NCBI GenBank assembly: GCA_019261985.1
Contig: JAFAQY010000043.1
Location: 1-33,973 of the forward strand
Source of the DNA: Bryobacterales bacterium
GTDB taxonomy: Bacteria; Acidobacteriota; Terriglobia; Bryobacterales; Bryobacteraceae
DNA: 33,973 nt
Direction: 5' to 3'
Made by a program: the position numbers and the translations under genes. A model generated the notes under the pieces. It searched no databases. It worked only from the letters and a program-made list of their open reading frames with translations, and was not told the DNA's origin. Shown piece after piece: positions 4,231 to 29,968 of this stretch (its first letter is position 1; the number at the start of each line of letters is the position of its first letter).

Positions 4231-4239
4231 CGAAGTGTG

Positions 4240-5034: not shown

Positions 5035-5077
5035 AAATCTCCTCGTAAATAAGGCAGGTGCTCCGTTCAGTTGGGAC

Positions 5078-6907: not shown

Positions 6908-6943
6908 ATTGGTTGAGACTGACTGGGAAATTCAGAGGAACGC

Positions 6944-10530: not shown

Positions 10531-11546
10531 TACCCGAGACGCTCGAAAAAGCCGGCGTGTTGGTGGGGAAGACGGAATGGAGTTAGCCGGCGGCGCAGCA
10601 CAGCCGCGCGGTCATACCATTTTTCGAGCAGCATCAAATGCAGCCAGATCGCGTCCTTATTCGGGGTAATCAGGTTTTCAATCGGGGACCAGGCGAACTG
10701 GTTGAACCAGGCATCGATCTTGGGCGGTAGTCCGGGCAGAACTACCGGCGAACCGAACCATGCGGCTGCGAATCGAAATCCGCAAAGCTCCAGCAGGTCT
10801 GGATTCTGGGGCGGGATGGAAACGCAGGCCAGTTCGAATGCGTGTGCCGGGCGCGCATCGTTCCGCAACACATGTCGCAAGACGTGTAAAGAGGCAAAGC
10901 GGATGCGGTCTATTTCGGAAAGAGCCGGGATTGTAAGGCAGTTTATTTTGAGAACAGTTTTATGCCGCCAAACTTGCGGCATATCGACAAGGATTCGGTC
11001 GTGGGCCGGATGCCAAAGCGAATCGTGCAACTCGATCGAAATCGGTACGTCCGGATCGAAGTAATCTCCACGCCATTTCCACTCGGATGGTTTCACCAAT
11101 GGGCGCGAATGTTCGGCGGACAAGGAGCGTTCGCCGTGAGAGCGATAACCGGCTTCGAACAAGGCCCGGGTTGCCGATTCGCGGTCCTCCGGGCGGCACA
11201 AGATGTCCAGATCGTATTGGACACGGTCCTCGGGCGAGATCCCAAAAACATTTTGATGGGTGAAGCCTTTGAGGAGCAGGAACTCGATGCCCGCGGTGGT
11301 TAGGATTTCGGCGACTTCGTAATACGCGGTGCGCAGGCGCCCGCGCTTGCTAAGGTTCTTCGCACGACGCAATTGGATTTGATCCTGAATATGCGCGGGC
11401 AGACCGTCCACGTGGCGCAGATACAGGGTTAGTTGGAAACGGTCGGTGAAAGCTAGGAGTGCATTCCAATCCACGTCGTAAGGACAAGCTGAAGCTTGTC
11501 CTACTGCTAGCATTTGGAAGGCGGCGCGGATGTGGGGCGGGATCAT
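10422..11546 (-). CDS. NTP_transf_5-like nucleotidyltransferase-fold protein
   Basis: The 374-residue protein resembles the uncharacterised nucleotidyltransferase family PF14907: helix-rich N-terminus, AGIEFLLLKGFT (about 85-96), then VQYDLDILCRPED (109-121) with the Asp-x-Asp pair (D112, D114) expected to bind metal, and later ISIELHDSLWHP. The family is often found in capsule or exopolysaccharide loci, but its substrate is not established as far as I know. Its ATG overlaps the stop of the HprK-like kinase gene as ATGA, so the two are translationally coupled. Residues 15-22 (VGQASACP) are encoded by a perfect 10-2-10 palindrome (11481-11502) and look like an in-frame repeat insertion. Confidence 0.78.
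   Translation of the reverse strand: MIPPHIRAAFQMLAVGQASACPYDVDWNALLAFTDRFQLTLYLRHVDGLPAHIQDQIQLRRAKNLSKRGRLRTAYYEVAEILTTAGIEFLLLKGFTHQNVFGISPEDRVQYDLDILCRPEDRESATRALFEAGYRSHGERSLSAEHSRPLVKPSEWKWRGDYFDPDVPISIELHDSLWHPAHDRILVDMPQVWRHKTVLKINCLTIPALSEIDRIRFASLHVLRHVLRNDARPAHAFELACVSIPPQNPDLLELCGFRFAAAWFGSPVVLPGLPPKIDAWFNQFAWSPIENLITPNKDAIWLHLMLLEKWYDRAAVLRRRLTPFRLPHQHAGFFERLGYHAAALARALLSGFRWRRSYTTSTASQISAWNRPRV
11481..11502. repeat. Perfect palindrome inside the NTP_transf_5-like gene
   Basis: Ten-base arms (AGGACAAGCT and its complement) surround a two-base centre. Read on the - strand together with the preceding bases it begins GTAGGACAAGC, a relative of the GTGGGGCAGGC element at 20926-20966, and is translated as V-G-Q-A-S-A-C-P. 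It is in frame and introduces no stop. Confidence 0.75.
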
Positions 11547-12427
11547 ATCAGGTTTTCAATTGCGTGCGCGGCGTCATCGGCGTGTTCGTATTCGAGAAGC
11601 AACGGTGAATCGATTACGCTGCAAAGATGATGCTCGGCTCGGGTTGTGTCTCGCGGACGGAGATATTTGAGGAAGTACTCGACGGCCGCGTCTTTATCGA
11701 AATGGAGCCGGGCGACCGGACCTGGTCTGCGCCTGAGAAAGACGCATTGGCCAATGACCGCCGATCGCATCGTCTTTAACCCGTGCGCTGAAGCATCGAT
11801 ATCAATGGCCTGCTTTCCATTCGGCGCCGTTTGCGCGGGAAGCTCGGCGAGCGAGGGAAAAAGCTTGCGCGCCGGCGGGCGGAGGCGAATTGTCGTCGAG
11901 GCTCCAACCCCAATGCGAGCGCATCCCGACGCCAAATGGACCGCATCGTCCGATACGAGCGTCAGGCCTCGGCGCGCGCACGCGTAAGCCAGAGAACTCT
12001 TGCCCGCTCCCGAGTCGCCGCACAGGAGAACGCCCGCGCCGGCACGGCTGACGCACGCGGCATGGAGCGGCGTGAAGAAAATTGCATCGAGTGCTGTTAA
12101 AACCAGAGCCTCCAATAAGTGATGGCGAAACAGCGCTGTGCCGAGCGCATCCGCTGTGCAGTTGACGCATCCCTTGCGTTCGCGTGGATCGAATTCCGCG
12201 TAATTCGATTCATCGGCGTAGAAGAAGAGCGATCCCGAGGTCGAGCTGAACGCAGGCTTCGAGCGCGGGGGTGGCCCGGGGCGAATCGTGGCGGTTATTT
12301 CAATGTGCGCCACATCGAACAGCGGAGGCCAGGAACCCCAGAGCGCGGCGGCTTCATTCAGCACCTCAGGCGATTCCGTGGCGATCCGCACTGGATAGCC
12401 CAACGGGAAAAGTGTCGCGGCAGGCAT
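11543..12427 (-). CDS. HprK-like serine kinase / P-loop ATPase of an exopolysaccharide locus
   Basis: The 294-residue protein has a Walker A motif GDSGAGKSS (137-145), followed by ARRGLTLVSDDAVHL, where the SDD (159-161) matches the acidic metal site seen in HPr kinase/phosphorylase-like proteins. The N-terminal third (1-120) is not the usual HPr kinase domain. The later segment (IRLRPPARKLFP...DIDA...RSAVIGQCVFLRRRPGP) fits the HprK-related proteins seen near polysaccharide and peptide-modification loci. It may phosphorylate a protein or small molecule, but no HPr or PTS gene is present. It abuts the flippase gene with no gap and overlaps the NTP_transf_5-like gene as ATGA, so the three form one leftward operon. 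Confidence 0.78.
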   Translation of the reverse strand: MPAATLFPLGYPVRIATESPEVLNEAAALWGSWPPLFDVAHIEITATIRPGPPPRSKPAFSSTSGSLFFYADESNYAEFDPRERKGCVNCTADALGTALFRHHLLEALVLTALDAIFFTPLHAACVSRAGAGVLLCGDSGAGKSSLAYACARRGLTLVSDDAVHLASGCARIGVGASTTIRLRPPARKLFPSLAELPAQTAPNGKQAIDIDASAHGLKTMRSAVIGQCVFLRRRPGPVARLHFDKDAAVEYFLKYLRPRDTTRAEHHLCSVIDSPLLLEYEHADDAAHAIENLI

Positions 12428-13852
12428 CTAGCGTGGCTCCATGAACAACTTTGGCTCGCGGCGGTAAAGCAATACGGTTAAGCCCACGAGAGAAACGATC
12501 TGAACGAAAACGGTAGCTAAGGCAATCCCGGCGACCCCCAGGTAGCGTGAAAAAACTAAATCGAGCACAACACCGGAGATCAGAGCCAGAACACCTATTC
12601 GCGCGAGCAACGCATTCGCGGAAATCGCCGATGCGAGTCGCGCGCCGATCGCCAGCAGCAGAGCGAAGGGGAGTTGCAGGAGCGAGAAGCGCTGCACGTG
12701 AGCCACAAGCCGCGCGGAGTCATGATGGAAAGCTCCGCGTTCGAATAAGACTCGTATTAAAGCCTCGGAGCCGCGAATGCACCCCGCTGCAAGCAAGAAC
12801 GCTATCGCGGCGGATGCCGCGCCACATATCAGAACGGTAGCGCGAACGCGCGCCCAATCTCGCGCCGAAGCCAAATGCGATAGAACCGGCAAGATCGTAA
12901 CGCCGATTGGCATCGCAATCACTTGCAGCATCACCGTAGTTAGCCGGGTGCCGTATACAAAGGCCGACACCTGACCGGGACCAAGCCTGCCGGCGATGGA
13001 CTGATCTATCAACACGCATGCCGAGGACAAACCCGAGCTCGCCAGCAGCGGCAGGTACTGCCTGGCGATCCCCGCCATCGCAGGATTGCGCCACTTGCGC
13101 CAATGCGGCACGACCGGATATCCCAGGCGCGATGCCGCGATCGCCAGGGCGAAACATTCGAGTGCAACTCCGGCAACTGTGCCGATGCATAGGACGCCAA
13201 CGCCCGAGCGCCGCGTGAACGCATAAAGACATGCGATACACATGAACGGAGATGCGATCGGGGCAATCGCCGGCAGTGCAAATAATCCGTGCGCATTCAG
13301 CACCGCGCGCCAGACCGCGCTGCACGCGCTCATCGGCAACCAGCACAGGAGCCCTAAGAACAGCACCGTCGTCAGCCGGAGCTTTTCTTCCGGAAAACCT
13401 CCCGCGGCGAACGGCATCAGCCAGTGACTGGAGGCGGCGAGTGCTCCCGTTATTATGAGCATGATTGTTGCCGCCGAGGACAGGGCGGAATCCGCCAATT
13501 CCCGCCCCCCCGTGGGGCCCTCTGCTTCGCGAGCCCGTACCAGTTGAGGCACCAGCGCTCCGGTGAGGCTTGCGCCTATTAAATCGGCGACGAAAGACGG
13601 CAACAAGAATGCGATAAGAAATGCATCCAGTTCATCGCCGGCGCCGAAGAATCGCGCCATGAAAATCGTCTTCCCCGCCCCGGCAAGTTTGGCGGCCGAC
13701 GTGAGAACGCCAACGGTGAGGGTATGAGTGAATAACTGAGTGCGAGAACCTTCTTCCTTCGCGCGTGCCAGCCGATTGGCAACCGGCTGCAGGTTGGCAA
13801 CCTGCCCCACAGTGGTTAATGACTGTGCCGCGCCGGTTAACGGAACAGTCAT
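12428..13852 (-). CDS. MurJ/MviN-like lipid flippase of the exopolysaccharide locus
   Basis: This polytopic protein of about 474 residues follows the MurJ/MviN pattern: LTVGVLTSAAKLAGAGKTIFMARFFGAGDELDAFLIAFLLPSFVADL at the start of the membrane part, then about 12-14 hydrophobic segments to a C-terminal LLYRREPKLF. MOP-superfamily members flip lipid-linked precursors, so here it may flip the glycan repeat unit rather than lipid II (inference). The ATG at 13852 is used; an in-frame GTG at 13864 also exists. About 40 residues precede the family-typical start, and part of them (VGQVANLQPVANRLA) is encoded by a palindromic repeat at 13770-13810. A GTG at 13810 inside the repeat is another possible start. 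No clear Shine-Dalgarno sequence settles it. Confidence 0.85.
   Translation of the reverse strand: MTVPLTGAAQSLTTVGQVANLQPVANRLARAKEEGSRTQLFTHTLTVGVLTSAAKLAGAGKTIFMARFFGAGDELDAFLIAFLLPSFVADLIGASLTGALVPQLVRAREAEGPTGGRELADSALSSAATIMLIITGALAASSHWLMPFAAGGFPEEKLRLTTVLFLGLLCWLPMSACSAVWRAVLNAHGLFALPAIAPIASPFMCIACLYAFTRRSGVGVLCIGTVAGVALECFALAIAASRLGYPVVPHWRKWRNPAMAGIARQYLPLLASSGLSSACVLIDQSIAGRLGPGQVSAFVYGTRLTTVMLQVIAMPIGVTILPVLSHLASARDWARVRATVLICGAASAAIAFLLAAGCIRGSEALIRVLFERGAFHHDSARLVAHVQRFSLLQLPFALLLAIGARLASAISANALLARIGVLALISGVVLDLVFSRYLGVAGIALATVFVQIVSLVGLTVLLYRREPKLFMEPR
13770..13810. repeat. Short member of the GTGGGG palindromic repeat family inside the flippase reading frame
   Basis: Two adjacent palindromes are present: 13770-13788 (AGCCGATT-GGC-AACCGGCT, one mismatch) and 13789-13805 (GCAGGTT-GGC-AACCTGC, perfect), followed by the terminal CCCCAC (13805-13810). 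Compared with the 110-bp copies, only one end is present. It is translated in frame as VGQVANLQPVANRL at the N-terminus of the flippase. Confidence 0.78.
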
Positions 13853-13856
13853 AACC
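13814..13856. promoter_or_regulatory. Inverted repeat at the divergent flippase/glycosyltransferase starts
   Basis: The arms GGTTAATGACTGT (13814-13826) and ACAGTCATAACC (13845-13856) are complementary over 12 pairs with a single-base bulge, separated by 18 bases. The right arm covers the flippase ATG (13850-13852) and lies 10 bases before the GTG of the glycosyltransferase gene. It could be an operator for both directions or an RNA hairpin. Nothing in the sequence identifies a regulator. Confidence 0.4.
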
Positions 13857-13866
13857 AGCAGCACAC

Positions 13867-14982
13867 GTGCGCGTTGCCATCGTCCACTATTGGTTACTCG
13901 GGATGCGAGGCGGAGAAGCCGTCATCGAATCGCTGTGCCGCATGTTTCCGGACGCGGACCTTTACACGCTCTTCTACGATCCGGAGCGCGTTTCCGAAGT
14001 GATCCGGTCGCACAGAGTCACTCCGTCGTACCTGAACCCGCTGCGAAGATTCTACCGGTCGTTGTTGCCGTGGATGCCGGCTGCGCTTGAGAGCTTCGAT
14101 CTGCGCGGATACGATCTCGTCATCAGCAGCGAATCGGGACCGGCTAAGGGCGCGCTAACCCCTGCGAGCGCGCGCCATGTCTGTTATTGCCATACGCCGA
14201 TGCGCTATCTTTGGGAGCTTTATCCGGACTACCTGAACGAATGGACGCATAACGGCCTTAAGCGCATGCTTATCCGATCGGCGGCAAAGCGGCTGCGGCT
14301 TTGGGATTATGCGTCATCCGCGAGAGTAGATCGCTTTATTGCCAATAGCGGCAACGTGCGGCAGCGAATTTGGAAAACCTACCGGCGAGATTCCGACGTG
14401 GTCTATCCTCCCGTGGCGGTCGAGACGTTTTTTCATCGTCCCGCGGAAGATTATTTCTTGGCCGTGGCGGAGTTGGTTTCATACAAGCGGCTCGAGCATG
14501 CCGTCCGGGTATTCTCGCGGACGGGGCGAAAGCTGCGAGTTGTGGGAGATGGGCCGGAGTACAAGAATTTGAAGCAGCGGGCCGGGCGCACGATTGAATT
14601 CTGCGGACGTGTTCCGGCTTCGGAGCTGAGGGAGTTGTACGCGCGGTCGCGCGCGCTGATTATGCCGGGTGAAGAAGATTTCGGCATCACGATTGTGGAA
14701 GCCTTAGCCAGCGGCAAGCCCGTGGTCGGGCTCGCCAGGGGCGGACTGCTGGAAATTGCATCGCTTGCGACATCACCGTGTTGTGTACTTTACCCCACCG
14801 CGTCGGAAGACGACCTCGAGAAGAGTCTCAGGCGCTTCGATGCGTGTGAAACGGAGTTCGTCCCTCTCCGGCTGCAGACTTTTGCACAGCGCTTTTCGGA
14901 AAAGCAGTTCGAAGAGAGCATGTGGGCGGTTTTACAATCGGCTGACCGCGCGTCCGAGCCTGTTCCCGATTCTTTCGTCTGA
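13867..14982 (+). CDS. GT4-type glycosyltransferase heading the radical SAM operon
   Basis: This 371-residue GT-B protein starts at GTG 13867 (MRVAIVHYWLLGMRGGEAVIESLCRMFPDADLYTLFYDP), a start typical of WbaZ-like mannosyl/rhamnosyltransferases. It contains VCYCHTPMRYLWELYPDY and FIANSGNV near the domain boundary. The donor domain has VVGDGPE.K.L and MPGEEDFGITIVEALASGKPVVGLARGGLLEI, including the E-x7-E motif. It is the first gene of a + strand operon reaching 23824 and lies 8 bases before the first radical SAM gene, which links that operon to glycan assembly. The start lies only 14 bases from the divergent flippase ATG, so its promoter must overlap coding sequence. Confidence 0.9.
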   Translation: MRVAIVHYWLLGMRGGEAVIESLCRMFPDADLYTLFYDPERVSEVIRSHRVTPSYLNPLRRFYRSLLPWMPAALESFDLRGYDLVISSESGPAKGALTPASARHVCYCHTPMRYLWELYPDYLNEWTHNGLKRMLIRSAAKRLRLWDYASSARVDRFIANSGNVRQRIWKTYRRDSDVVYPPVAVETFFHRPAEDYFLAVAELVSYKRLEHAVRVFSRTGRKLRVVGDGPEYKNLKQRAGRTIEFCGRVPASELRELYARSRALIMPGEEDFGITIVEALASGKPVVGLARGGLLEIASLATSPCCVLYPTASEDDLEKSLRRFDACETEFVPLRLQTFAQRFSEKQFEESMWAVLQSADRASEPVPDSFV

Positions 14983-14990
14983 AGGTCGAA

Positions 14991-16505
14991 ATGAAGCAGG
15001 TTGGAATGGCTTCGAAGAAGATCGTCTTTTTCTTTCCCTCTTTTACTAGCTCCGAGGCGACTGCGCCGCTCGGAATTCTCGCGATTTCCACTCCCCTGCT
15101 TCGCGCCGGCTATCAGGTCAAGCTGATCGACTCGACAATCACGCCTAACTTCAAACAGCGCGTGATTGAGGAATTGGCCGATGCGCTGTGCCTGGGAATC
15201 TCGCTGGTCACGGGGCCGATGATCCGTGAAACAGTGGCGATCGCGCGCGAGGCCAAACGGCTTTATCCCAACAAACCGGTGATTCTCGGGGGCTGGCATC
15301 CGTCTTTATTGCCGGATCAGACTCTAGCGGCCGAGTACGTCGACATCGTTGTGATCGGGCAGGGGGAAGAAGCCCTGCTTGAGATCGTGCAGCATATCGA
15401 AGCAGGCGAGCTTCCGCGCGGAGTACGCGGGGCGGGATACAAGGAAAACGGCCGAATGGTTTTCAATCCCCGGCGCGAGCTGCGTCCGCTTTCGGAAATG
15501 CCGCCAAAGGCTTACCAGGTTGCGGACTTCGATGCCTATGAGCGCCTTTGCGGCCGGCGCTGGGCGATGTACACCAGCAGTCTGGCGTGCCCGTTCAACT
15601 GCGGATATTGCACCAATGAAGGCGTGTACGGCCGCAAGTGGAACGCGCTGGCCCCGGAGCAGGCGAGCGAGGAATTGTGCGATCTGGCCTCGCGATATCG
15701 TCTGCAACTGGTCTGGGTGGTGGACGACAACTTTTTGGTCGACCGGGATCGCGCGCTGCAGATCGCGGAAGGAATTCTTCAGCGGGGCGTCCGGTTCGAG
15801 TGGAGCATCCAGGCATCAACAAATTTGGTCACACGGCTGAGTGTGGACGAACTGAAGCTGATGCGCCGCGCGGGATTGACGCAGGTCGCGCAAGGCGCGG
15901 ACTCGGGCTCGCCAAAGGTGTTGCATTTGATGAACAAGGATTTTCAAAAGCTGGAAACGATCTATGAGGCCGCGGATCGTTTGTCGCAGGCGGGCATCCG
16001 GCCATCCTTCAACGTCATTTTCGGCTATCCGGGTGAGGGGCGTAAAGAGCGCCGCGAATCGATCCGCTTAATTATGAAGATCTGCCGCACCTATCCGGGC
16101 GCGGAATTCTGGACCAATATTTTCACTCCATATCCGGGCGCGCCGATTATGAACAAGGCGTTCGAGCTAGGCATTCACGCGCCCAAGCGCCTGGAGGAAT
16201 GGGCCGATTTCTTCCCCAAATACACCGTTCTGCCGTGGCTGAAAGGCCGGGAGCATGAGCAGGTGCAGGCGATTCGCGACTACATCCGCATGGCTTTTCG
16301 GCGCGTGAACATCGGCAGATGGCGCAAAGGACTGCTCGCGAAGCTGGTGTATCAATCGATAGCGCCTTTCGCGCGCTGGCGGCTGGACCACGATTTCTAC
16401 TTCTTTCCGTTCGAAGTGTGGCTCAAGCGCGCCATCGACCAGATGCCAGCGCGGCCTGAAAAGGCCGCGCCGCAAAAACTCCCTTCCGAGGCACTCGCGT
16501 GTTAG
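14991..16505 (+). CDS. B12-binding-domain radical SAM protein 1
   Basis: The 504-residue protein has an N-terminal Rossmann-like B12-binding-type domain (about 10-140: PLGILAISTPLLRAGYQVKLIDSTI, then VILGGWHPSLLP and VDIVVIGQGEEALLEIV), followed by a radical SAM core with CPFNCGYC (C200, C204, C207) for the 4Fe-4S cluster. Further family features are VVDDNFL, QGADSGSPKVLHLMNKD and FNVIFGYPGEG. Relatives include cobalamin-dependent C-methylases, BchE and hopanoid-associated HpnJ-type enzymes; the exact reaction cannot be assigned. An ATG at 15006 is an alternative start. Near the 3' end, 16451-16468 forms a 7-bp stem with a GAAA loop. The gene overlaps the next one by 7 bases. Confidence 0.88.
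   Translation: MKQVGMASKKIVFFFPSFTSSEATAPLGILAISTPLLRAGYQVKLIDSTITPNFKQRVIEELADALCLGISLVTGPMIRETVAIAREAKRLYPNKPVILGGWHPSLLPDQTLAAEYVDIVVIGQGEEALLEIVQHIEAGELPRGVRGAGYKENGRMVFNPRRELRPLSEMPPKAYQVADFDAYERLCGRRWAMYTSSLACPFNCGYCTNEGVYGRKWNALAPEQASEELCDLASRYRLQLVWVVDDNFLVDRDRALQIAEGILQRGVRFEWSIQASTNLVTRLSVDELKLMRRAGLTQVAQGADSGSPKVLHLMNKDFQKLETIYEAADRLSQAGIRPSFNVIFGYPGEGRKERRESIRLIMKICRTYPGAEFWTNIFTPYPGAPIMNKAFELGIHAPKRLEEWADFFPKYTVLPWLKGREHEQVQAIRDYIRMAFRRVNIGRWRKGLLAKLVYQSIAPFARWRLDHDFYFFPFEVWLKRAIDQMPARPEKAAPQKLPSEALAC
16451..16468. other. 7-bp GC hairpin with GAAA tetraloop inside the end of radical SAM gene 1
   Basis: GCGGCCT and AGGCCGC flank GAAA, giving a perfect GNRA-capped stem about 30 bases before the GTG start of the next gene. 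It encodes part of a low-complexity tail (RPEKAA). It may slow ribosomes or stabilise mRNA between the two genes, or be coincidental in GC-rich DNA. Confidence 0.4.
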
Positions 16506-17845
16506 TTCTTCTCACGCACGCAAACCATCTTTATTCGGATCGCAAGCAGGTCCAGAAGATGCAGCCGTATCCGCCATTGCAGACTCTGCTGGCCGCGGCG
16601 ATGCTGCGCGAACAGGGCGTGGAGGTCGCGTTCTTCGATACGACATTCAATCGGGATTTTGTTTCGGCGTTGGATCGCGTACGGCCGGATTTAGTTGCCG
16701 TCTGCGAGGACAATTTCAATTTCCTTACGAAAATGTGCCTGGAGCAGAATCGGCGTTTGGCATTGGAAATCGCGCAGGCTGCCGGTGCGCTGGGTATACG
16801 CGCCGTAATCAACAGCTCGGATGCGACAACCAATCCACACGTCTATTTGGAAAGCGGATTCGATTCCGTAATTCTAGGCGAATTGGAAGATACCTTGGCC
16901 GATATCTCCGAATCCGCTTCTTGTGGCGATTTGCCGAAGGCGGGTACGGCTTCTGACAGGGGCCTTGGTCATCCTCGCGCGCCGATATCCGATCTCGACC
17001 GGATACCGCCTCCGGCGTGGGACTTAGTCGACTTAGAGCCGTATCGTCGCGCCTGGGTCGACGCTCACGGCCACTTTGCGATTAATTTAGTAGCTAGCCG
17101 GGGCTGTCCGTACCGGTGTAACTGGTGCGCGAAGCCGATCTACGGCTCGATGTATCGCTTCCATTCGCCGGATCGCGTCGCCCGCGACATGCAGCGGATC
17201 AAAGAACTGTGCCGGCCCGATCAGATCTGGTTCGCCGATGACATTTTCGGCCTTTCGGGGAAATGGGTGCGCGAGTTTGCTTCCTGTGTCGAGCGGCGAA
17301 ATGCGGCCATTCCTTTTCGTATTCAATCGCGATGCGATCTGATGACTCGCGATACAGTTGCGGCGCTGCGCCGGGCTGGCTGTGTCGAGGTATGGATGGG
17401 CGCGGAGTCCGGCTCGCAACGCGTGCTGGACGCAATGGACAAGGGCACTCGGGTCGCGCAGATCGATGAAGCGCGCGAGAATCTACGGCGGCACGGCATT
17501 CGCGCGTGCCTGTTTCTACAATTCGGTTACCTCGGCGAAGAGTGGGAGGATATTGAGTCGACGATCAAAATGATTCGCCGCGTACAGCCGGACGACATCG
17601 GGGTTTCGGTGTCGTACCCGATGCAGGGGACGCGTTTCTACAACATCGCCAAGGCGCAGATTGGAGCCAAGGCGAATTGGTCCGATAGTGGCGAGCTCGC
17701 GCGAATGCTCCGAACGCAGTTCCCATCGGACTTGTACCGCGCGCTGGCGGAGGCGCTGCATCGAGAGGTGCGGCGAAACGGATCGGCGGCGGAATTACGG
17801 CGGGCCTGGGAAAGAGTCGAGGATTTTCGATGCGTGTCCTGCTGA
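16499..17845 (+). CDS. B12-binding-domain radical SAM protein 2
   Basis: This 448-residue protein starts at a GTG inside the previous gene. The N-terminal B12-binding-type domain spans about 1-140 (MLVLLTHANHLYSDRKQVQKMQPYPPLQTLLAAAMLREQGVEVAFFDTTF, then FDSVILGELEDTLADI). The radical SAM core contains SRGCPYRCNWCAKPIYG (C203, C207, C210), WFADDIFGL, VWMGAESGSQRVLDAMDKGTRVAQ and FLQFGYLGEEWEDIE. Matching segments occur in protein 3 downstream, so the two are probably old tandem duplicates. The reaction is unknown; candidates include C-methylation or oxidative cyclisation of a glycan or lipid component. The overlap with gene 3 is 16 bases. Confidence 0.88.
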   Translation: MLVLLTHANHLYSDRKQVQKMQPYPPLQTLLAAAMLREQGVEVAFFDTTFNRDFVSALDRVRPDLVAVCEDNFNFLTKMCLEQNRRLALEIAQAAGALGIRAVINSSDATTNPHVYLESGFDSVILGELEDTLADISESASCGDLPKAGTASDRGLGHPRAPISDLDRIPPPAWDLVDLEPYRRAWVDAHGHFAINLVASRGCPYRCNWCAKPIYGSMYRFHSPDRVARDMQRIKELCRPDQIWFADDIFGLSGKWVREFASCVERRNAAIPFRIQSRCDLMTRDTVAALRRAGCVEVWMGAESGSQRVLDAMDKGTRVAQIDEARENLRRHGIRACLFLQFGYLGEEWEDIESTIKMIRRVQPDDIGVSVSYPMQGTRFYNIAKAQIGAKANWSDSGELARMLRTQFPSDLYRALAEALHREVRRNGSAAELRRAWERVEDFRCVSC

Positions 17846-19143
17846 CGCACGGCTTCTTCCTCGCGGAAGATCCAAAAGAACAAACCGTGATGCGGCCGTA
17901 TCCGCCGCTCGGGATCTTGTATCTTTCGGCGTACTTGAGAAAAAAGGGATTCGATGTTGAAGTCTATGATTCGACGTTTGGATCGAAGCGGGAGCTCTTC
18001 GATATTTTGGAGCACGATGCGCCGGGATGGCTCGGCGTATATGGGAATTTGCTGACTCGGGGTAACGTGGCGGAGATAGCCGGGCACGCACGCGCGAAGG
18101 GGTGGCGTGTAGTGCTCGGCGGCCCCGAGCCCGCCAATTATGCGCAAGAGTATCTCGAAGCCGGTGCTGAATTCATCGTCGCGGGCGAAGGCGAGCTCGC
18201 GTTCGAGCAGTTGCTGCTAGGCAACTCCTCGCCGCCTGGGGTGATTTATGGCGATATGTCCGGTCAGGTGGTTCGCACTCCGCCCGCGGCAATGATTGCC
18301 GATCTTAATTCCCTGCCGTGGCCGGATCGCGAGCGCATCGGACTTGATCGATATTTGAACGTTTGGCGTGCCCGGCACGGCATTGGTTCCGTTTCGCTGA
18401 TTACGGCGCGCGGATGTCCTTATCATTGCCGCTGGTGCAGCCACTCCGTTTATGGGAAAACGCACCGTCGCAGGAGTGTGACCGCCGTTGCCGAGGAAGC
18501 GGAATGGATTCTTCACCGCTATAGCCCGGAAATGCTGTGGTACGCCGATGACGTGTTCACCATTCATACAAGCTGGACATTGCAGTACGCGGCGGAGATG
18601 AAACGCCGCGGTATTCGCGTGCCATTCGAATGCATAACGCGGGCAGATCGCTTCAGCGCTCCCGTCGCGGAGGCGCTGGCGCAAATGGGATGCTTTCGCG
18701 TGTGGATCGGATCGGAGAGCGGATCGCAGCGCGTGCTGGACGCGATGCAACGCGGCGTGAAGGTGGCGCAGGTGCAAGCGGCGGTCGAGCTTGCGAAATC
18801 GAACGGGCTCCAAGCGGGCATGTTTCTGATGTGGGGTTACGAAGGCGAGGAGCTCGAGGACATTGAAGCGACGGTGGAACATGTCCGCAAGTGCCGCCCG
18901 AACGTGTTTCTTACAACCGTCGCATATCCCATAAAAGGGACGCCCTATTATCAGCAGGTCGAAGACAGGCTGATCCGGCTGGGCGAATGGCGGACGTCGA
19001 CCGAACGCGATGTTCGCATTACCAGCCGCCGGTCGCAGCGCTTTTATGAACATGCCGACAATTTGCTGAGGCTCTCGCTTGAGCAGCCTCAGGATAGCTC
19101 GCGGATTGAGGCCGCGCGAGCTGAGTTGGAAGCAGCAGCATGA
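17830..19143 (+). CDS. B12-binding-domain radical SAM protein 3
   Basis: The 437-residue protein starts MRVLLTHGFFLAEDPKEQTVMRPYPPLGILYLSAYLRKKGFDVEVYDSTF, a classic B12-binding radical SAM opening, and continues through VVLGGPEP and FIVAGEGELAFEQLL (about 115-130). The 4Fe-4S motif is CPYHCRWC (C196, C200, C203). WYADDVFTIHTSW, VWIGSESGSQRVLDAMQRGVKVAQ and FLMWGYEGEELEDIEATVEHVRKCRPN follow, parallel to protein 2. This family contains anaerobic cyclases and hopanoid-type enzymes as well as methylases. Its stop overlaps the start of the next methyltransferase as ATGA, so the products are probably made in a fixed ratio. Confidence 0.88.
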   Translation: MRVLLTHGFFLAEDPKEQTVMRPYPPLGILYLSAYLRKKGFDVEVYDSTFGSKRELFDILEHDAPGWLGVYGNLLTRGNVAEIAGHARAKGWRVVLGGPEPANYAQEYLEAGAEFIVAGEGELAFEQLLLGNSSPPGVIYGDMSGQVVRTPPAAMIADLNSLPWPDRERIGLDRYLNVWRARHGIGSVSLITARGCPYHCRWCSHSVYGKTHRRRSVTAVAEEAEWILHRYSPEMLWYADDVFTIHTSWTLQYAAEMKRRGIRVPFECITRADRFSAPVAEALAQMGCFRVWIGSESGSQRVLDAMQRGVKVAQVQAAVELAKSNGLQAGMFLMWGYEGEELEDIEATVEHVRKCRPNVFLTTVAYPIKGTPYYQQVEDRLIRLGEWRTSTERDVRITSRRSQRFYEHADNLLRLSLEQPQDSSRIEAARAELEAAA

Positions 19144-19772
19144 ACAGTCCGTTCGATACCGTGGCGCCTGATTATCAACATCTGTGGTCCGACACCGGCC
19201 GCGGCCGGTCGCAGAGGTCTGAGGTGTGGCGGCACATAGATCCCTTGTTCCGGCAAGGCGATCGCGTTCTGGATATCGGCTGCGGCACGGGCGACGATGC
19301 TCTTCATTTGTGCGGTTTCGGGGTACGCGTGGTTGGGCTCGATTCATCGCCCAGAATGGTGCAGATCGCGCGCACCCGTGGCGTGCATGCGCGATTGATG
19401 CCGTTAGAGGATCTAAGCCGGCTTAAAAGTTCGTATGCGGGAGCGATCTCCAACTTCGGAGCACTGAACTGCGTTCGCGATTTGCGGCCGGTTGCGGAGG
19501 ATCTATCGCGCGTGATTCGTCCGGGTGGGCCGCTTGCGATCTGTCTTATGGGCAAGTTCGCGCTGGTGGAAATACTTCGGTTTATCGCACGGCTTGAATG
19601 GCAGCGTGCCGCCAGGCGCTGGTCCGGCCGGACGACGTGGCGGGGTTTGGACATCTACTATCACGCGTGGCGCCAGGTTCAAAAGGATTTCGCGCCTACA
19701 TTTGTAATGCACAAGCGGGTGCCGATCGGGTGGGGAGATCACCAACTCTTCATATTCCGGAGAAAGGCATGA
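19140..19772 (+). CDS. Class I SAM-dependent methyltransferase 1
   Basis: The 210-residue protein has motif I VLDIGCGTGDDALHL (43-57), then VVGLDSSPRMVQIAR (motif II, acidic Asp) and a VIRPGGPLAICLMGKF post-I region, matching Methyltransf_11/25-type enzymes. A C-terminal insert (WQRAARRWSGRTTWRGLDIYYHAWRQ) probably forms the acceptor pocket. It could methylate a sugar, lipid or other small molecule at O, N or C; the acceptor cannot be read. It overlaps both neighbours by 4 bases (ATGA at each junction), so it is tightly coupled to radical SAM protein 3 and methyltransferase 2. Confidence 0.85.
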   Translation: MNSPFDTVAPDYQHLWSDTGRGRSQRSEVWRHIDPLFRQGDRVLDIGCGTGDDALHLCGFGVRVVGLDSSPRMVQIARTRGVHARLMPLEDLSRLKSSYAGAISNFGALNCVRDLRPVAEDLSRVIRPGGPLAICLMGKFALVEILRFIARLEWQRAARRWSGRTTWRGLDIYYHAWRQVQKDFAPTFVMHKRVPIGWGDHQLFIFRRKA

Positions 19773-20542
19773 TTGGTGCCGCAATGCGCCGTCAGTTTCT
19801 GGCGGACTATGCCAGGATCCGGGCCGCGGAAGGACGCGGCGCCGATACCAGCGCGTATTATCGCTCGCTTCCGTTCGCGGATCTCACCGGCCGCAACTCC
19901 GGGCAGTGGCGGATTCGGGCACGCACGTTCGAGTATTTTCTGCGGCACATTATTCCTCGCGGGGCTTGCCGGATTCTGGATTTAGGCGCGGGAAACTGCT
20001 GGCTCACATACCATCTGATGCTGCTGGGACATTCGGTAGTGGCGCTGGACATCTTTGCCGACGAACGCGATGGGTTGCGCGCGCGCAGGCATTATCCGGT
20101 GGAGGTTCGCGCCGTCGAGGCTGATTTCAACACGCTCCCGTTTAACAACTCGAGTTTCGATCTATTGATCTTCAACTCGTCGATTCATTATTCCAGCGAT
20201 TACGTGCAGACGTTGCATGAGGCGCGGCGGTGCCTGCGGCCCGGCGGCCGGGTAGTTATTTTAGATTCGCCCGTGTACAGGCGCTGTGAGCACGGCGAAG
20301 CCATGCGGGCCGAACGGCAGTTGGATTTTGAGCGCCGCTTCGGAGGACGCTCGGCAGCTTTGGGCAGCATCGAATATTTCGATCTCGAAACTTTGAGGAC
20401 GCTCGCAAGCCGGCTTTCAATCCGCTGGAAAATCCACCGGCCCTGGTACGGGTTTCGCTGGCATCTTCGTCCGGCTATTGCGCTATTGAAGCGCCGGCGG
20501 CCGCCTTCGCGCTTTTGGATTTTGGAGGCCGCGTTTCAGTGA
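19769..20542 (+). CDS. Class I SAM-dependent methyltransferase 2
   Basis: The start at ATG 19769 is preferred because it forms an ATGA junction with the previous gene; the frame is open back to 19598 but that part lies wholly inside the upstream gene. The product has 257 residues. The N-terminal part (DYARIRAAEGRGADTSAYYRSLPFADLTGR) precedes motif I ILDLGAGNCWLTYHL (69-83), then VVALDIFADERDGL, FDLLIFNSSIHYS and CLRPGGRVVILDSPVYR. It belongs to the Methyltransf_11-like group seen in O-antigen and natural-product loci. The acceptor is unknown. It ends in a GTGA junction with radical SAM gene 4. Confidence 0.85.
   Translation: MIGAAMRRQFLADYARIRAAEGRGADTSAYYRSLPFADLTGRNSGQWRIRARTFEYFLRHIIPRGACRILDLGAGNCWLTYHLMLLGHSVVALDIFADERDGLRARRHYPVEVRAVEADFNTLPFNNSSFDLLIFNSSIHYSSDYVQTLHEARRCLRPGGRVVILDSPVYRRCEHGEAMRAERQLDFERRFGGRSAALGSIEYFDLETLRTLASRLSIRWKIHRPWYGFRWHLRPAIALLKRRRPPSRFWILEAAFQ
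20524..20528 (+). promoter_or_regulatory. Ribosome binding site deciding the start of radical SAM gene 4
   Basis: GGAGG lies ten bases before the GTG at 20539 and inside the end of the preceding gene. It favours GTG 20539 over the in-frame ATG at 20515, which would place the site inside the coding region. Confidence 0.6.
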
Positions 20543-22032
20543 TCGTTTTCTTGCATCCGCGCAGTATCCGCCGCGCGAGGAACCGCCGGTTTCCGCTCTC
20601 CGTGCTGGCGCTGGCAGCGGTGCTTGAAGGACGCGAAGAATACGAGATCGTGGACGGCAATATCGATCCCGATCCAGCGGCATCTCTAGGCCGGGTCATG
20701 CGCGAGCGGCCGGCGCGCGCGCTATGCGTGTCGCTGATGCCGGGGCCGCAAATGGTCGCGGCGATCGGGCTATCGAGATGGTTCCGTGCCAGCTACCCCC
20801 ATGTGCCAATTATCTGGGGCGGCTATTTCCCGTCGCTTTATCCCGATACGGCTCTGAACGCGCCATATGTCGATGTCGTCGTTCGCGGCCAAGGGGAAGA
20901 CACATTTCTCGAATTGCTGGCATCTGTGGGGCAGGCTTCAGCCTGCGGTGGGTTTCAGCCCTCCGCTCTACGGCATATCCCCGGTATTTCGTATCGCGAT
21001 CAGTTCGGGCTGCACGTTCACACGCGCGATCGCGGCATTCGCTCGCCGGGCGATTTTCCGTGGATGCCGTATCACAGCCTGCGCGAGCCGCACAAATATC
21101 TGGCGCGGACGTTTCTTGGAAACCGCACGGCGGTGCACCAGGCAAGCTACGGCTGCCCTTTCCGGTGCAAGTTTTGCGGCGTTACGGAAGTCGCCGGCGG
21201 CAGGCAGAAATGCGAGAAGCCGGAGAGAACGGCGGCCATTCTTACGAAGCTGCAGCACGATTTCGGCATCGACGCCGTCCAGTTTTACGATAACAACTTC
21301 TTCCTCCGCGAGGACGACTCGGCCGAACTGGCGGAGCGCATCGGTCCTTTAAACCTTCAGTGGTGGTGCGAGGGACGCATCGATATTCTGTTGCGCTATT
21401 CCGATCGCACGCTGGCTGCCCTTCGCCGCTCCGGCTGCAAGATGATTTTTCTGGGCGCGGAGTCCGGATCAGATGAAATCCTGCGCGCCATGGATAAGCA
21501 GCTCACTTCATCGCAGACGCTGGATCTCGCCCGCCGCATCCGCCAGTTCGGAATTATTCCCGAGTTTTCCTTCGTCATCGGCAATCCGAAAGATCCGGAT
21601 ACGGATCTTCGCACAAATATGCAGTTCATCCGGAAACTCAAGAGCGCGAACCCGGATGCGGAGATCATCATTCAGCACTACACGCCGACGCCGCACCCGG
21701 ACGGTATGTATGGCGACATCGACGACAAGATAGCGTTTCCGAAAACGCCGGATGAATGGGCAACTCCGCGCTGGTACAACTTCACTGTGCGCGAGGATCC
21801 CGCTTTGCCATGGCTGCCTCGGCGGACGAAACGTCTGATCGACGCGTTTGAGACCGTGATGTCCTGCCGCTGGCCGACAATTCAGGATTCGCGCCTGTCG
21901 CGCTGGGCACGCGCTATGCTCAAGGGCCTAAGCTGGTGGCGCTACGCATTCAATTGCTACAAATGGCCGCGCGAGCTGCACCTGGCGCAGATGGTGCTTC
22001 GGCCGCGCGATCCGCGCGTCGAGAGTTTATGA
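20539..22032 (+). CDS. B12-binding-domain radical SAM protein 4
   Basis: With the GTG start the protein has 497 residues. The B12-binding-type domain (about 1-128) includes FPLSVLALAAVLEGREEYEIVDGNI, IIWGGYFPSLYPDTAL and VDVVVRGQGEDTFLELL. The 4Fe-4S motif is CPFRCKFC (C206, C210, C213), followed by QFYDNNFFL, WWCEGRIDIL and FLGAESGSDEILRAMDKQL. It resembles protein 1 more than proteins 2 and 3 (GGYFPSLYPD versus GGWHPSLLPD). Residues about 130-145 (VGQASACGGFQPSAL) are encoded by a palindromic repeat at 20926-20966, placed between the B12 domain and the linker where length change should be tolerated. The substrate is unknown. Confidence 0.87.
   Translation: MIVFLHPRSIRRARNRRFPLSVLALAAVLEGREEYEIVDGNIDPDPAASLGRVMRERPARALCVSLMPGPQMVAAIGLSRWFRASYPHVPIIWGGYFPSLYPDTALNAPYVDVVVRGQGEDTFLELLASVGQASACGGFQPSALRHIPGISYRDQFGLHVHTRDRGIRSPGDFPWMPYHSLREPHKYLARTFLGNRTAVHQASYGCPFRCKFCGVTEVAGGRQKCEKPERTAAILTKLQHDFGIDAVQFYDNNFFLREDDSAELAERIGPLNLQWWCEGRIDILLRYSDRTLAALRRSGCKMIFLGAESGSDEILRAMDKQLTSSQTLDLARRIRQFGIIPEFSFVIGNPKDPDTDLRTNMQFIRKLKSANPDAEIIIQHYTPTPHPDGMYGDIDDKIAFPKTPDEWATPRWYNFTVREDPALPWLPRRTKRLIDAFETVMSCRWPTIQDSRLSRWARAMLKGLSWWRYAFNCYKWPRELHLAQMVLRPRDPRVESL
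20926..20966. repeat. GTGGGG palindromic repeat inserted in frame in radical SAM gene 4
   Basis: After GTGGGG, the palindrome GCAGGCT-TC-AGCCTGC (20931-20946) is perfect. It overlaps a second palindrome, GCGGTGGG...CCCTCCGC (20945-20966), with one mismatch. It is translated V-G-Q-A-S-A-C-G-G-F-Q-P-S-A. The same family occurs at 11481, 13770, 22040 and 23790. Confidence 0.78.
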
Positions 22033-22039
22033 CAACGTC

Positions 22040-22149
22040 GTGGGGCAGGTTGCCAAACCTGCGCGCGATTGCCAATCGCGCTGTTCGGGGTCGGAAAAAA
22101 GGTCCGCAGGCGGGTTGGCAACCCGCCGCAGGATGGCATCCTGCCCCAC
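22040..22149. repeat. 110-bp GTGGGG...CCCCAC palindromic element, copy 1
   Basis: The element begins GTGGGG and ends CCCCAC. It holds four palindromes in order: GCAGGTTGCCAAACCTGC, GCGATTGCCAATCGC, an irregular centre at about 22081-22107, GGCGGGTTGGCAACCCGCC and GCAGGATGGCATCCTGC. Its reverse complement closely matches 23790-23897. It lies between radical SAM gene 4 and methyltransferase 3 and is the only clear gap in the operon. It has no room for a protein of its own, so it looks like a MITE- or REP-like element. Confidence 0.85.
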
Positions 22150-22160
22150 TGTGTTTAACC

Positions 22161-22790
22161 ATGGAGGCTCGCGAGGCATATCGTATTCTGGCGGCGAGCT
22201 ACGATCGCGAGCCGAATGCATTGATCTCGCTTGAGGAGCGCACGATGCTGCCGCTTCTTCCCGAGCTTCGGGGGCGTACTGTCATCGATGTTGGCGCGGG
22301 AACGGGCCGTTGGGCTTCGTATTGCCGCGCGCGGGGAGCCGCGGCAATTGCATTGGACTTCTCTCATGAGATGCTATGCCGCTGCGCGTGCCCGGCGGTT
22401 GAAGCCGATGGTCGTCTGCTTCCTTTCCGGGATTCCTGCGCGGATCTGGCGATATGCGCTTTTGCTCTCGGCTACGCGCCCGGAGCGTTTCGCGAGTTGC
22501 GGCGAATCGTGAGGCCGGGAGGGATGATCCTGGCAAGCGATGTTCACCCGGAAGCGATCAGGAGCGGTTGGACGCGCAGCTTTCGGCACAACCCCGCGAC
22601 GATTAGCGTGGCGCATGAACAGTATTCGATAACACAGTTGACGGCATCCGATATTGTCTTAACGCGCCTCTTCGAGCCGAGGCTGGGCGAGCCGGAACGG
22701 GCGATCTTCGATCGGGCGGGCTGCGCCGATCGGTTCGATGATGCTACACGAGTCCCGGCGATATTCGTCGCGCAATGGGTTCGCACGTGA
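22161..22790 (+). CDS. Class I SAM-dependent methyltransferase 3
   Basis: The ATG at 22161 is chosen because the frame upstream runs through the repeat element and the preceding gene, and homology-like sequence begins here (MEAREAYRILAASYDREPN). The 209-residue protein has motif I VIDVGAGTGRWASY (41-54), then IALDFSHEML, ADLAICAFALGY and LRRIVRPGGMILASDVHP, matching Methyltransf_11-type enzymes. No strong Shine-Dalgarno sequence precedes the ATG. It is separated from the operon by the 110-bp repeat and overlaps the amidohydrolase by 16 bases; the pair is bracketed by inverted repeat copies. The acceptor is unknown. Confidence 0.85.
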   Translation: MEAREAYRILAASYDREPNALISLEERTMLPLLPELRGRTVIDVGAGTGRWASYCRARGAAAIALDFSHEMLCRCACPAVEADGRLLPFRDSCADLAICAFALGYAPGAFRELRRIVRPGGMILASDVHPEAIRSGWTRSFRHNPATISVAHEQYSITQLTASDIVLTRLFEPRLGEPERAIFDRAGCADRFDDATRVPAIFVAQWVRT

Positions 22791-23824
22791 TTGTCGAGGG
22801 GATCGATCTCGATCTGGATGAGCTCCAGATCATGCCCGGCCTGGTTAACGCGCACGATCATCTTCATTTTTCATTGTTCCCGCGGCTCGGGTTGGGCCCG
22901 TACGAGAATGCGACGGAATGGGCGCGCGACATTTATCATCCCGACCGCGAGCCAGTCCGGTCCCATTTGGCCGTGCCTAAATCATTGCGGCTCATCTGGG
23001 GCGGTCTGCGGAATCTGCTTGCCGGCGTGACCACTGTTTGCCACCACGACGAATATCACCCGGCGTTCGATTCCGGTTTCCCGATCCGTGTGGTGAAACG
23101 ATTCGGATGGGCGCATTCGCTCGCCTTCACCGAAGATGTGCGCGGAAGATTCGAGACCACACCGGCGGATCAGCCGTTCATCATCCATTTGGCTGAGGGG
23201 ACCGATGCGGACGCCGCCGGAGAAATCTTCAAGTTGCACGAACTGGGCGCGTTGACGGAGCGGACCGTGGTCGTCCATGCTGTTGGACTCACCGCCGAAG
23301 GATGGGATTTGCTACGCCGTGCTGGAGCGGCGGCGGTCTGGTGCCCGCGATCGAATCTGTTCACCGTCGGGCGTACTTTGCCGCGACAAGTAATCGATTC
23401 GGGAGTAAGGATCGCGTTAGGAACCGATTCATCCCTGACGAGCGAGGGCGATTTTCTAGACGAGATTCAATTCGCAAAAAGTATGACCGCATGCGCGCGC
23501 AAGATTGCCATTCAGGGCGCGCACGATGTACTGAGAACGCCGAAACACCGGGGCGATTGGATTGCAACACGCCGGTTTGGCGAAGCACCTGAGCTAGTCG
23601 TGATTGATGGGGAAATCCGGCTGATCAGCCCCAAGTTAGCTAAGTACTTACCCCAGTCCGTTTGTGAGTGCTTTCATCGGATTCAGGTCGAAGACCGGCC
23701 GGCCGTGCTGGTCCGTTGGGATGTTCCAGCGCTGTTGGAGGAGACGAGCAGGTATTTGAATCCGATACGGCTTGCAGGCCGTTTGGTTTGTGGGGCAGGA
23801 TGCCATCCTGCGGCGGGTTGCTAA
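22775..23824 (+). CDS. Amidohydrolase-superfamily metal-dependent hydrolase with repeat-derived C-terminus
   Basis: The 349-residue protein has the TIM-barrel amidohydrolase signature: PGLVNAHDHLHF with the metal-binding HxH (H27, H29), FIIHLAEG (H138, E141), VVVHAVG (H168) and GTDSSLTSEGDF (D218). The order and spacing fit the cytosine-deaminase/TRZ-like branch, which acts on C-N bonds of small molecules. The N-terminal beta region is short (about 22 residues before PGLVNAH) and the C-terminal one is reduced. The last residues (GAGCHPAAGC) and the TAA stop are encoded by the palindromic repeat at 23790-23897, so the original C-terminus may have been replaced. An in-frame GTG at 22790 is an alternative start. 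Confidence 0.83.
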   Translation: MGSHVIVEGIDLDLDELQIMPGLVNAHDHLHFSLFPRLGLGPYENATEWARDIYHPDREPVRSHLAVPKSLRLIWGGLRNLLAGVTTVCHHDEYHPAFDSGFPIRVVKRFGWAHSLAFTEDVRGRFETTPADQPFIIHLAEGTDADAAGEIFKLHELGALTERTVVVHAVGLTAEGWDLLRRAGAAAVWCPRSNLFTVGRTLPRQVIDSGVRIALGTDSSLTSEGDFLDEIQFAKSMTACARKIAIQGAHDVLRTPKHRGDWIATRRFGEAPELVVIDGEIRLISPKLAKYLPQSVCECFHRIQVEDRPAVLVRWDVPALLEETSRYLNPIRLAGRLVCGAGCHPAAGC

Positions 23825-23897
23825 CCCGCCTGCCGACGTTTTACAAACCCCAACCAGCGCGATTGGCAATCGCGCGCAGGTTAGCAACCTGCCCCAC
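23790..23897. repeat. 108-bp GTGGGG...CCCCAC palindromic element, copy 2 (inverted relative to copy 1)
   Basis: It begins GTGGGG and ends CCCCAC, with palindromes in the opposite order to copy 1: CAGGATGCCATCCTG, GGCGGGTTGCTAACCCGCC, an irregular centre at about 23830-23856, GCGCGATTGGCAATCGCGC and GCAGGTTAGCAACCTGC. It lies between two convergent genes and supplies the TAA stop of each: the amidohydrolase at 23822-23824 and PilZ at 23881-23883 on the complement. The strong hairpins could also act as a bidirectional terminator or mRNA stabiliser. Confidence 0.85.
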
Positions 23898-29857: not shown

Positions 29858-29968
29858 ACCACGGCACTACCGCCGCGAGACGTGGTCAAGATCGCCACAG
29901 CATTAGCTGCTCGTCGACGCGTCCCTCGCTTCATTGGCCACGAACTCATCCCGAGCCGCCCGGATGCC

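Follow-up and report, generated by a model that had tools for sequence, protein, structure and literature searches.

A conserved acidobacterial cassette of B12-type radical SAM enzymes and methyltransferases beside polysaccharide genes: a possible tailoring set for a surface glycan

What might a bacterium make with a run of genes that places several B12-type radical SAM proteins and methyltransferases directly beside an exopolysaccharide (EPS) locus? The question is raised by the 33,973-nt stretch of acidobacterial DNA analyzed here (the window), for which an earlier note had proposed a modified sugar, lipid or glycolipid and had named no known pathway with this gene set; our searches likewise matched none. 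To our knowledge, operons in which five or six radical SAM enzymes act together are rare, and a radical SAM cassette is not a recognized component of Wzx/Wzy-dependent EPS loci. In the literature searched (open-licence PMC papers), neither a description of such a cluster nor a multi-radical SAM operon tied to a structural polysaccharide was found. The reading that we tentatively favor is that these genes form a conserved acidobacterial tailoring set for a surface polysaccharide, the presumed substrate being a glycan building block.

All nine open reading frames at positions 13867-23824 are present, unbroken and transcribed in the same (+) direction (Table 1). By Pfam, four are B12-type radical SAM proteins and three are class I methyltransferases; the remaining two are a GT4 glycosyltransferase and an ATZ/TRZ-type amidohydrolase, as had been read from the letters alone. 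The accompanying claim that the genes mostly overlap fails at two junctions: g1 and g2 are separated by 8 bp, and g7 and g8 by a gap of ~128 bp, since aligned g8 homologues begin at the position matching 22161 and a REP-like repeat occupies 22056-22149. Judged from these homologues, g8 probably starts at 22161 rather than 21936; the start of g6 is probably 19769 rather than 19598. The GC content is 0.57-0.62 throughout the window, so composition gives no sign of a recent foreign island and this origin was rejected. No Rfam match to a cobalamin riboswitch was obtained in the window or in four related loci (L135, L136, L138 and L157), and the sole match in that scan was 6S RNA in L135.

Table 1. 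Features of the cassette and of the adjoining EPS locus (positions in the window)
Feature	Position	Strand	Basis
g1, GT4-type glycosyltransferase	13867..14982	+	Pfam Glycos_transf_1, 66.4 bits
g2, B12-type radical SAM	14991..16505	+	Pfam B12-binding + Radical_SAM; 63-72% identity to 8 orthologues
g3, B12-type radical SAM	16499..17845	+	Pfam B12-binding + Radical_SAM; alignment with relatives
g4, B12-type radical SAM	17830..19143	+	Pfam B12-binding + Radical_SAM
g5, class I SAM methyltransferase	19140..19772	+	Pfam Methyltransf_25/11; alignment with relatives
g6, class I SAM methyltransferase	19769..20542	+	Pfam Methyltransf_11 (on longer frame 19598-20542); alignment with relatives
g7, B12-type radical SAM	20533..22032 (GTG 20533 or TTG 20515 start)	+	Pfam B12-binding + Radical_SAM; alignment with relatives
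g8, class I SAM methyltransferase	22161..22790 (open frame from 21936)	+	Pfam; alignment with homologues
g9, ATZ/TRZ-type amidohydrolase	22775..23824	+	Pfam Amidohydro_1
MurJ/Wzx-type flippase, adjoining EPS locus	12428..13864	-	Pfam MurJ
HprK-like kinase	11543..12427	-	Pfam Hpr_kinase_C
NTP_transf_5 nucleotidyltransferase	10422..11546	-	Pfam PF14907
Remaining EPS locus: Bac_transf, TIG-domain protein, 2 Wzy_C proteins, Wzz-like, GT4	3568..10530		Pfam

A contig scan with g7 as query and anchor, from which the best 80 of 209 relatives were kept as related loci, revealed a conserved set, g2-g10, of ten genes: five for B12-type radical SAM proteins, one for a radical SAM/SPASM protein, three for methyltransferases and one for the amidohydrolase (tblastn matches below 70 bits were dropped from gene content). 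Gene order is collinear, as far as the locus reaches, in 71 of these 80 loci in the window's class, and clustering is kept in rearranged form outside that class, where a codon-model gene caller was used for distant GC-rich loci that a longest-ORF-first caller handled poorly. Close homologues scattered through unrelated contexts, which the earlier note had named as evidence against its proposal, were thus not what was found. Its nine-gene set is a conserved grouping, but the relatives' set is larger, with a fifth B12-type gene (g2b) and the SPASM gene (g10), both missing from the window locus, and it lacks g1. This glycosyltransferase gene, present and co-directional as claimed, occurs in 13 of the 80 related loci in varying orientation; it is part of the neighboring EPS locus, outside the core cassette. 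The window's genome carries its fifth B12-type gene elsewhere, close to a Wzy gene on a different contig, and g10 was not found in it at a search threshold of E 1e-70.

Phylum-wide searches, confined to Acidobacteriota (E 1e-120 for g7 and g4, 1e-70 for g10), placed g7 in 34, g4 in 36 and both in 32 of 396 genomes (hypergeometric p ~2e-40, a value that ignores kinship), with the two genes within 15 kb on one contig in 27 of the 32. The collinearity of related loci and this coincidence across genomes reject a chance grouping; the grouping is far beyond chance. HpnR (TIGR04367) is uninformative as a co-occurrence control because it had no match at E 1e-120 in the 396 genomes or even in 14 named control genomes. 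Carriage is patchy across the phylum, and carriers include named strains of Granulicella, Edaphobacter, Terriglobus and Silvibacterium. Many soil Acidobacteriota therefore inherit, as a unit, an apparently undescribed set of some ten enzymes, of which as many as six are radical-type.

The domains PF02310 and PF04055 score above curated cut-offs in g2, g3, g4, g7 and g2b, and the CxxxCxxC motif is invariant in g2, g3, g4 and g7 when each is aligned with 8 to 11 relatives, in agreement with the four intact proteins originally described. With an N-terminal B12-binding domain, a Radical_SAM domain and this motif, the four have the architecture of class B enzymes and may use cobalamin. The suggestion that their relatives are B12-dependent methylases holds in part. 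In PDB profile searches, g2 is nearest, by a small margin, to TokK (54.7 bits; MgmA, 47.9; AprD4, 47.6), and the sequence of g4 is nearest to MgmA (76.7 versus 61.4 bits for AprD4). In contrast, g3 is clearly nearest to AprD4 (96.6 versus 77.7 bits for MgmA), g7 gives a near tie (AprD4, 62.5; MgmA, 60.2), and the predicted fold of g4 is nearest to AprD4 although its sequence is nearest to a methylase. Because AprD4 is a diol dehydratase, these matches of g3 (sequence) and g4 (fold) mean that a methylase role is not established for each radical protein; conversely, the g4 sequence match and the g7 near tie leave the dehydratase reading firm only for g3.

AprD4 (PDB 6fd2), the radical SAM 1,2-diol dehydratase of apramycin, shares the overall fold of a radical SAM domain with a B12-type N-terminal domain and is the best solved match in profile searches with g3 (clearly) and g7 (marginally) and in the fold comparison with g4. 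Its substrate is a glycoside, its identity to g4 is ~20%, and window proteins score 49.7-87.4 bits on its NCBIfam model, which has a cut-off of 500. As far as we know, AprD4 itself does not bind cobalamin. No dehydrogenase or reductase family was recognized by Pfam among the nine proteins, so that AprD4-type deoxygenation is incomplete as seen, with no AprD3-like reductase. The cobalamin-dependent methylases TokK, OxsB, CysS, TsrM, MgmA and gentamicin GenK/GenD1 are distant in sequence from the cassette proteins; unlike them, the cassette combines five B12-type proteins with a SPASM protein and lies beside Wzx/Wzy loci. For g4, as for g9 below, similarity of fold alone is no proof of function.

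The best NCBIfam scores are to BchE for g2 (119.4), g4 (108) and g7 (107.5) and to PhpK for g3 (109.4), with cut-offs of 360-650, and the HpnJ and ladderane B12 models also score on the window's radical SAM proteins. Among the matches listed, no window protein reaches the cut-off of the BchE, HpnJ, HpnR, ladderane B12, PhpK or AprD4 model, nor that of any other, and membership in a known equivalog family was rejected. These scores, and the presence among carriers of Edaphobacter aggregans, which is reported to contain branched GDGTs, would suit a cassette that modifies a membrane lipid, for example by methylating or cyclizing branched tetraether or hopanoid lipids. However, the listed matches all lie far under their cut-offs, an amidohydrolase nearest to nucleoside deaminases and glycan-related neighbors are ill-suited to such a task, and carriage in 34 of 396 genomes contrasts with diabolic-acid-type lipids, which are widespread in Acidobacteriota. 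We regard lipid modification as quite improbable.

In g9, the metal-site residues are intact (HDH 27-29, H138, H168 and D218) and E141 is invariant, which by sequence gives it the HxH, H, H, D site expected of ATZ/TRZ amidohydrolases. Its predicted fold is nearest to adenosine/MTA deaminases; the fold search gives ranges only, and residues 30-135 could not be aligned with the two solved relatives compared. Identity to MTA/adenosine deaminases, TrzN and AtzA is ~20%, and the NCBIfam 5'-deoxyadenosine deaminase model gives 27.1 bits against a cut-off of 522. Unlike these relatives, g9 falls under every NCBIfam cut-off listed and is often joined to a methyltransferase: g8 and g9 share one open frame in 24 of the 57 loci having both (among the best 80 of 209 relatives), counted as frames spanning both matches, one of which (L113) ends at a contig end. 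It is a distinct possibility, if one that we lean against, that g9 serves only to clear away the 5'-deoxyadenosine or S-adenosylhomocysteine released by the radical enzymes and methyltransferases and catalyzes no step toward the product, a role compatible with any other reading of the cassette.

The window's EPS genes encode Bac_transf, MurJ, two Wzy_C and two GT4 proteins (one of them g1), the content of a Wzx/Wzy-type locus. A Wzz-like protein scores 24.3 bits, just under the Pfam cut-off of 25.5; no export porin was recognized in the window and no NDP-sugar synthesis gene among the 29 window ORFs scanned. Many relatives, like the window, have Bac_transf, flippase, Wzy and GT genes close by, a content shared with Wzx/Wzy-dependent EPS loci, and in one relative the cassette continues the Wza/Wzx/Wzy operon in a single-direction run (Wza-Wzx-Wzy-GTs-HprK-g2-g2b-g3-g4-g5). 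A panel of EPS-type genes (HprK-like, NTP_transf_5, GT, Wzy, Bac_transf and MurJ) was scored in the 42 of the 80 loci with long flanks (g7 preceded by 9 kb or more and followed by 4 kb or more): at least one panel neighbor occurs in 31, one other than HprK-like or NTP_transf_5 in 20, and none in 11. The proposed link to a polysaccharide locus is thus recurrent and strong, but at this flank range it is not universal.

Recurrent neighbors include the HprK-like gene (27 of the 80 loci) and NTP_transf_5 (21). Their distances to g7 were read by hand in 18 chosen genomes, namely the 15 of the window's class that carry g7 and are G000 or in family f11, plus G468, G030 and G055, two of which (G239 and G308) look near-identical and are not independent. 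In 14 of the 18, NTP_transf_5 is no more than 23 kb from g7, and in 4 it is far away or on another contig; HprK-like, sought with one protein and perhaps under-counted, is far away or on another contig in 5. The recurrence of these two families, together with the SPASM protein, recalls systems that modify peptides; the many models on which g10 scores include the peptide maturases ScmE and PapB, and MgmA, nearest to the g4 sequence, is a protein methylase. Yet the HprK-like protein is far below the cut-offs of the HprK_rel models, and in related loci we recognized neither a precursor-like ORF nor a leader peptidase or PqqD-type protein among ORFs of at least 80 aa, a size limit that a shorter precursor would escape. 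There are also small ORF families (124-183 aa), each recurring in 4-7 loci; these lie at the locus edge, and the one scanned had no Pfam match. Maturation of a peptide or protein is, in our judgment, very improbable.

Multi-step sets of radical SAM enzymes and methyltransferases are typical of natural products, and the cassette could instead make a diffusible or cell-bound small molecule, aminoglycoside- or nucleoside-like, with EPS genes merely as frequent neighbors. Related loci, in which selected proteins rather than every one were annotated, contain P450-type genes (7 of the best 80 of 209 relatives; Pfam done for one) and, in some cases, sulfotransferase, PIG-L and GNAT genes, all of which would fit such a product, as would the 11 of 42 long-flank loci with no panel neighbor. 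A sugar epimerase/dehydratase gene was seen in one distant locus. AprD4, GenK and GenD1 act on aminoglycosides (PMC5461906). Against this explanation, the Wzx, Wzy, GT, NTP_transf_5 and HprK-like context recurs, and no PKS, NRPS or aminocyclitol synthase was recognized among the selected proteins scanned; we consider it unlikely, though a serious rival.

In the polysaccharide reading, the radical SAM enzymes would alter the carbon skeleton of a repeat-unit sugar or its precursor. Candidates for cobalamin-dependent C-methylation are g2 and g2b, and g3, perhaps with g4 and g7, would be a putative AprD4-like dehydratase or deoxygenase; g4 and g7 might just as well be methylases. The methyltransferases g5, g6 and g8 would then cap hydroxyl or amino groups, and g9 may strip an amine or a comparable group from the intermediate that they work on, or else clear a nucleoside by-product. 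The neighboring Wzx/MurJ, Wzy, GT, HprK-like and nucleotidyltransferase genes would assemble, activate and export the glycan. We infer the substrate, the order of steps, the division between methylases and dehydratases, the use of cobalamin and the roles of the HprK-like and NTP_transf_5 proteins; the observed basis consists of the domains, intact motifs, conserved set, co-inheritance, polysaccharide context, g8-g9 fusion and fold neighbors of g4 and g9. Counted against the polysaccharide reading are the long-flank loci with no EPS panel gene, P450-type genes that a free natural product would explain as well, the missing AprD3-like reductase and NDP-sugar synthesis gene, the failure to find g10 in the window's genome, the distant NTP_transf_5 and HprK-like genes in some chosen genomes, and, for the dehydratase step, the nearness of the g4 sequence to MgmA and the near tie of g7. 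The full version, in which five or six radical SAM steps that mix C-methylation with AprD4-like dehydration yield a surface-glycan building block and a methyltransferase-amidohydrolase fusion belongs to that pathway, is improbable as a whole.

The cassette is widely recurrent in a phylum that ranks among the commonest in soil, and its presence in named Granulicella, Edaphobacter, Terriglobus and Silvibacterium strains makes it genetically testable. If the polysaccharide reading is false, the genes still encode an unstudied pathway with several uncharacterized radical enzyme families. If it is true, aminoglycoside-like radical chemistry would enter cell-surface biology and unusual sugars would be predicted there, and a mixture of C-methylation and AprD4-like dehydration would define a new class of bacterial surface sugar.

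The nine genes that the earlier note had read as an operon are real and intact, as judged from open reading frames and Pfam matches (see table). The overlaps it described are present, at 4-16 bp, at the other junctions when the tabulated g7 start is used, and are absent from g1-g2, where there is an 8-bp gap, and from g7-g8, where a REP-like repeat occupies the space ahead of the g8 start.

Features of the window
Feature	Assignment	Position	Remark
g1	GT4 glycosyltransferase	13867-14982	
g2, g3, g4	B12-type radical SAM proteins		
g5, g6	Methyltransferases		
g7	B12-type radical SAM protein	20533 (start)	Start taken for junction lengths
g8	Methyltransferase	~22161 (start)	Where homologues begin
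g9	Amidohydrolase	22775-23824	
MurJ-type flippase, HprK-like kinase, NTP_transf_5 protein		Upstream of cassette	Opposite strand
Wzy, Wzz-like, GT4, Bac_transf genes		Farther upstream	Beyond NTP_transf_5
19-base sequence	Palindromic core	20928-20946	Within g7 coding region
REP-like repeat	Inverted copies	22056-22149 / 23790-23882	Flank g8 and g9; 53 nt at 94%, 44 nt at 89%
REP-like repeat	Related copy	13773-13810	5' part of MurJ frame
67-nt repeat	Direct, 91% identity	26948-27014, 29968-30034	

The 19-base sequence lies at a point where the window's g7 protein carries a short in-frame insertion missing from ten aligned orthologues, and it has 189 copies genome-wide (at most 2 mismatches) versus 0 for a reversed control pattern. 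The peptide VGQASAC is common to g7 and the N-terminal vicinity of the NTP_transf_5 protein. The sequence looks like a repeat tolerated inside genes.

A g7 profile scan of one genome per species yielded 209 relatives, and the best 80 of these, which were used for analysis, are all titled as acidobacterial taxa; placement was checked by look-up for Bryobacterales, Terriglobia, Silvibacterium and Candidatus Solibacter, and the remaining taxa, including Granulicella, Edaphobacter and Terriglobus, we take to be acidobacterial. Most of 20 neighbourhoods keep the order g2-g3-g4-g5-g6-g7-g8-g9 to their contig limits, the exceptions being two that are rearranged (L031, L044) and one with g8-g9 only (L026), and 8 of the 20 encode an additional g2-like protein, g2b. 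The amidohydrolase g9 is present in 24 of 151 related genomes. Clustering the genes of the 80 loci revealed a tenth member, g10, a radical SAM/SPASM protein (by Pfam, with cysteines invariant in alignment) that is found in 60 loci and adjoins g9 in 49 of those. Among 42 loci with long flanks (at least 9 kb before and 4 kb after g7), g7 and g8 occur in 42, g2, g4 and g5 in 39 each, g3 in 38, g10 in 37, g9 in 35, g6 in 33 and g2b in 25, and g2, g3, g4, g5, g7 and g8 occur all together in 35. The core genes present share a single strand and a common order in 71 of the 80 loci; nine are rearranged (L068, L085, L087, L088, L093, L101, L104, L106, L112), including a split form in which g2-g7-g8 is separate from, and at times divergent to, g2b-g3-g4-g5-g10 (L085, L087, L088, L093, L112). 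The clustering proposed earlier is genuine, with a core revised from nine genes to ten and the glycosyltransferase g1 placed outside it.

Outside the window's class, the cassette genes are still present but in a different arrangement, with identities of about 28-56%. Two such genomes (G332, G473) have g7 matches with E-values of 2.2e-273 and 2.0e-260, as high as family f11 within the window's class, which suggests either that the cassette was transferred horizontally or that a contig is misplaced; g7 elsewhere outside the class scores near 1e-120 to 1e-173.

Across 396 genomes drawn from the phylum Acidobacteriota, g7 was found in 34, g4 in 36 and both in 32, with the pair at most 15 kb apart on one contig in 27 of the 32 and on separate contigs in 5. 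Three of the six genomes with only g7 (G261, G410) or only g4 (G198, G433, G492, G515) are less than 90% complete. Of 28 genomes with g10, 27 also carry g7 or g4. At four loci (L079, L095, L099, L106) g4 lies outside the locus stretch, yet it was found elsewhere in all four genomes; in each, another match of lower score, which is presumably g3, begins at a distance of 1.5-1.9 kb. L104, the fifth genome searched, carries both g3 and g4 within its own locus. The cassette genes behave as one pathway.

In the window's genome, g2b lies not at the cassette but on another contig (C25), where it is 60% identical to a relative's g2b and one small ORF separates it from a Wzy_C protein. No g10 orthologue was found in this genome at the thresholds used, so the strain's product may be shortened; with genome completeness at 98.8%, g10 could also lie on a missing contig. 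In a close relative (L045, whose g7 is 72% identical), g10 is present.

Additional gene families also occur near the cassette among the 80 loci. A P450-like family at seven (L050, L057, L062, L064, L086, L114, L119; for example L050 14223-15356, with a Pfam p450 match for one representative) is a possible additional tailoring step, and a sulfotransferase family, assigned by Pfam from one member, is found at six (L058, L066, L097, L099, L103, L122; for example L066 15724-16875).

The individual enzymes belong to known superfamilies and no match was found for the whole system; literature searches of open-licence papers, judged from listings, found no description of such a gene set. The pathway put forward in the earlier note is real and, as far as searched, undescribed. 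A neighbour from an exopolysaccharide panel (HprK-like, NTP_transf_5, GT, Wzy, Bac_transf, MurJ) occurs in 31 of the 42 long-flank loci, one other than HprK-like or NTP_transf_5 in 20, and none in 11. In 18 chosen cassette-bearing genomes, with 27 NTP_transf_5 genes in all, one lies less than 23 kb from g7 in 14, and an HprK-like gene lies less than 20 kb from it in 13. In one genome (G393) the cassette prolongs a single-direction run of genes: NTP_transf_5 (28% by tblastn), SLBB/Poly_export, one gene with no Pfam hit, Polysacc_synt_3 (Wzx-type), Wzy_C, GT2, GT4, WecG, GT87 and HprK-like (slightly below the Pfam cut-off), followed by g2, g2b, g3, g4 and g5. Pfam annotation of chosen neighbours outside the window's class identified GT4-type glycosyltransferases (L138, L140, L141), GT87 (L140), a Wzx-type protein (L142), FkbM methyltransferases (L136, L141), PIG-L deacetylase (L141, L143), GNAT (L138, L141), a sugar epimerase (L141) and NTP_transf_5 (L136, L153). 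Other neighbours give no pointer to glycans: ferrochelatase plus an additional radical SAM/SPASM protein (L141), CotH kinase, porin and a phospholipase-D-like protein (L136), and a two-component sigma-54 regulator pair (L153). Our best reading, held tentatively, is that the cassette tailors a surface glycan; the chief rival explanation, that it makes a free natural product, we consider rather unlikely.
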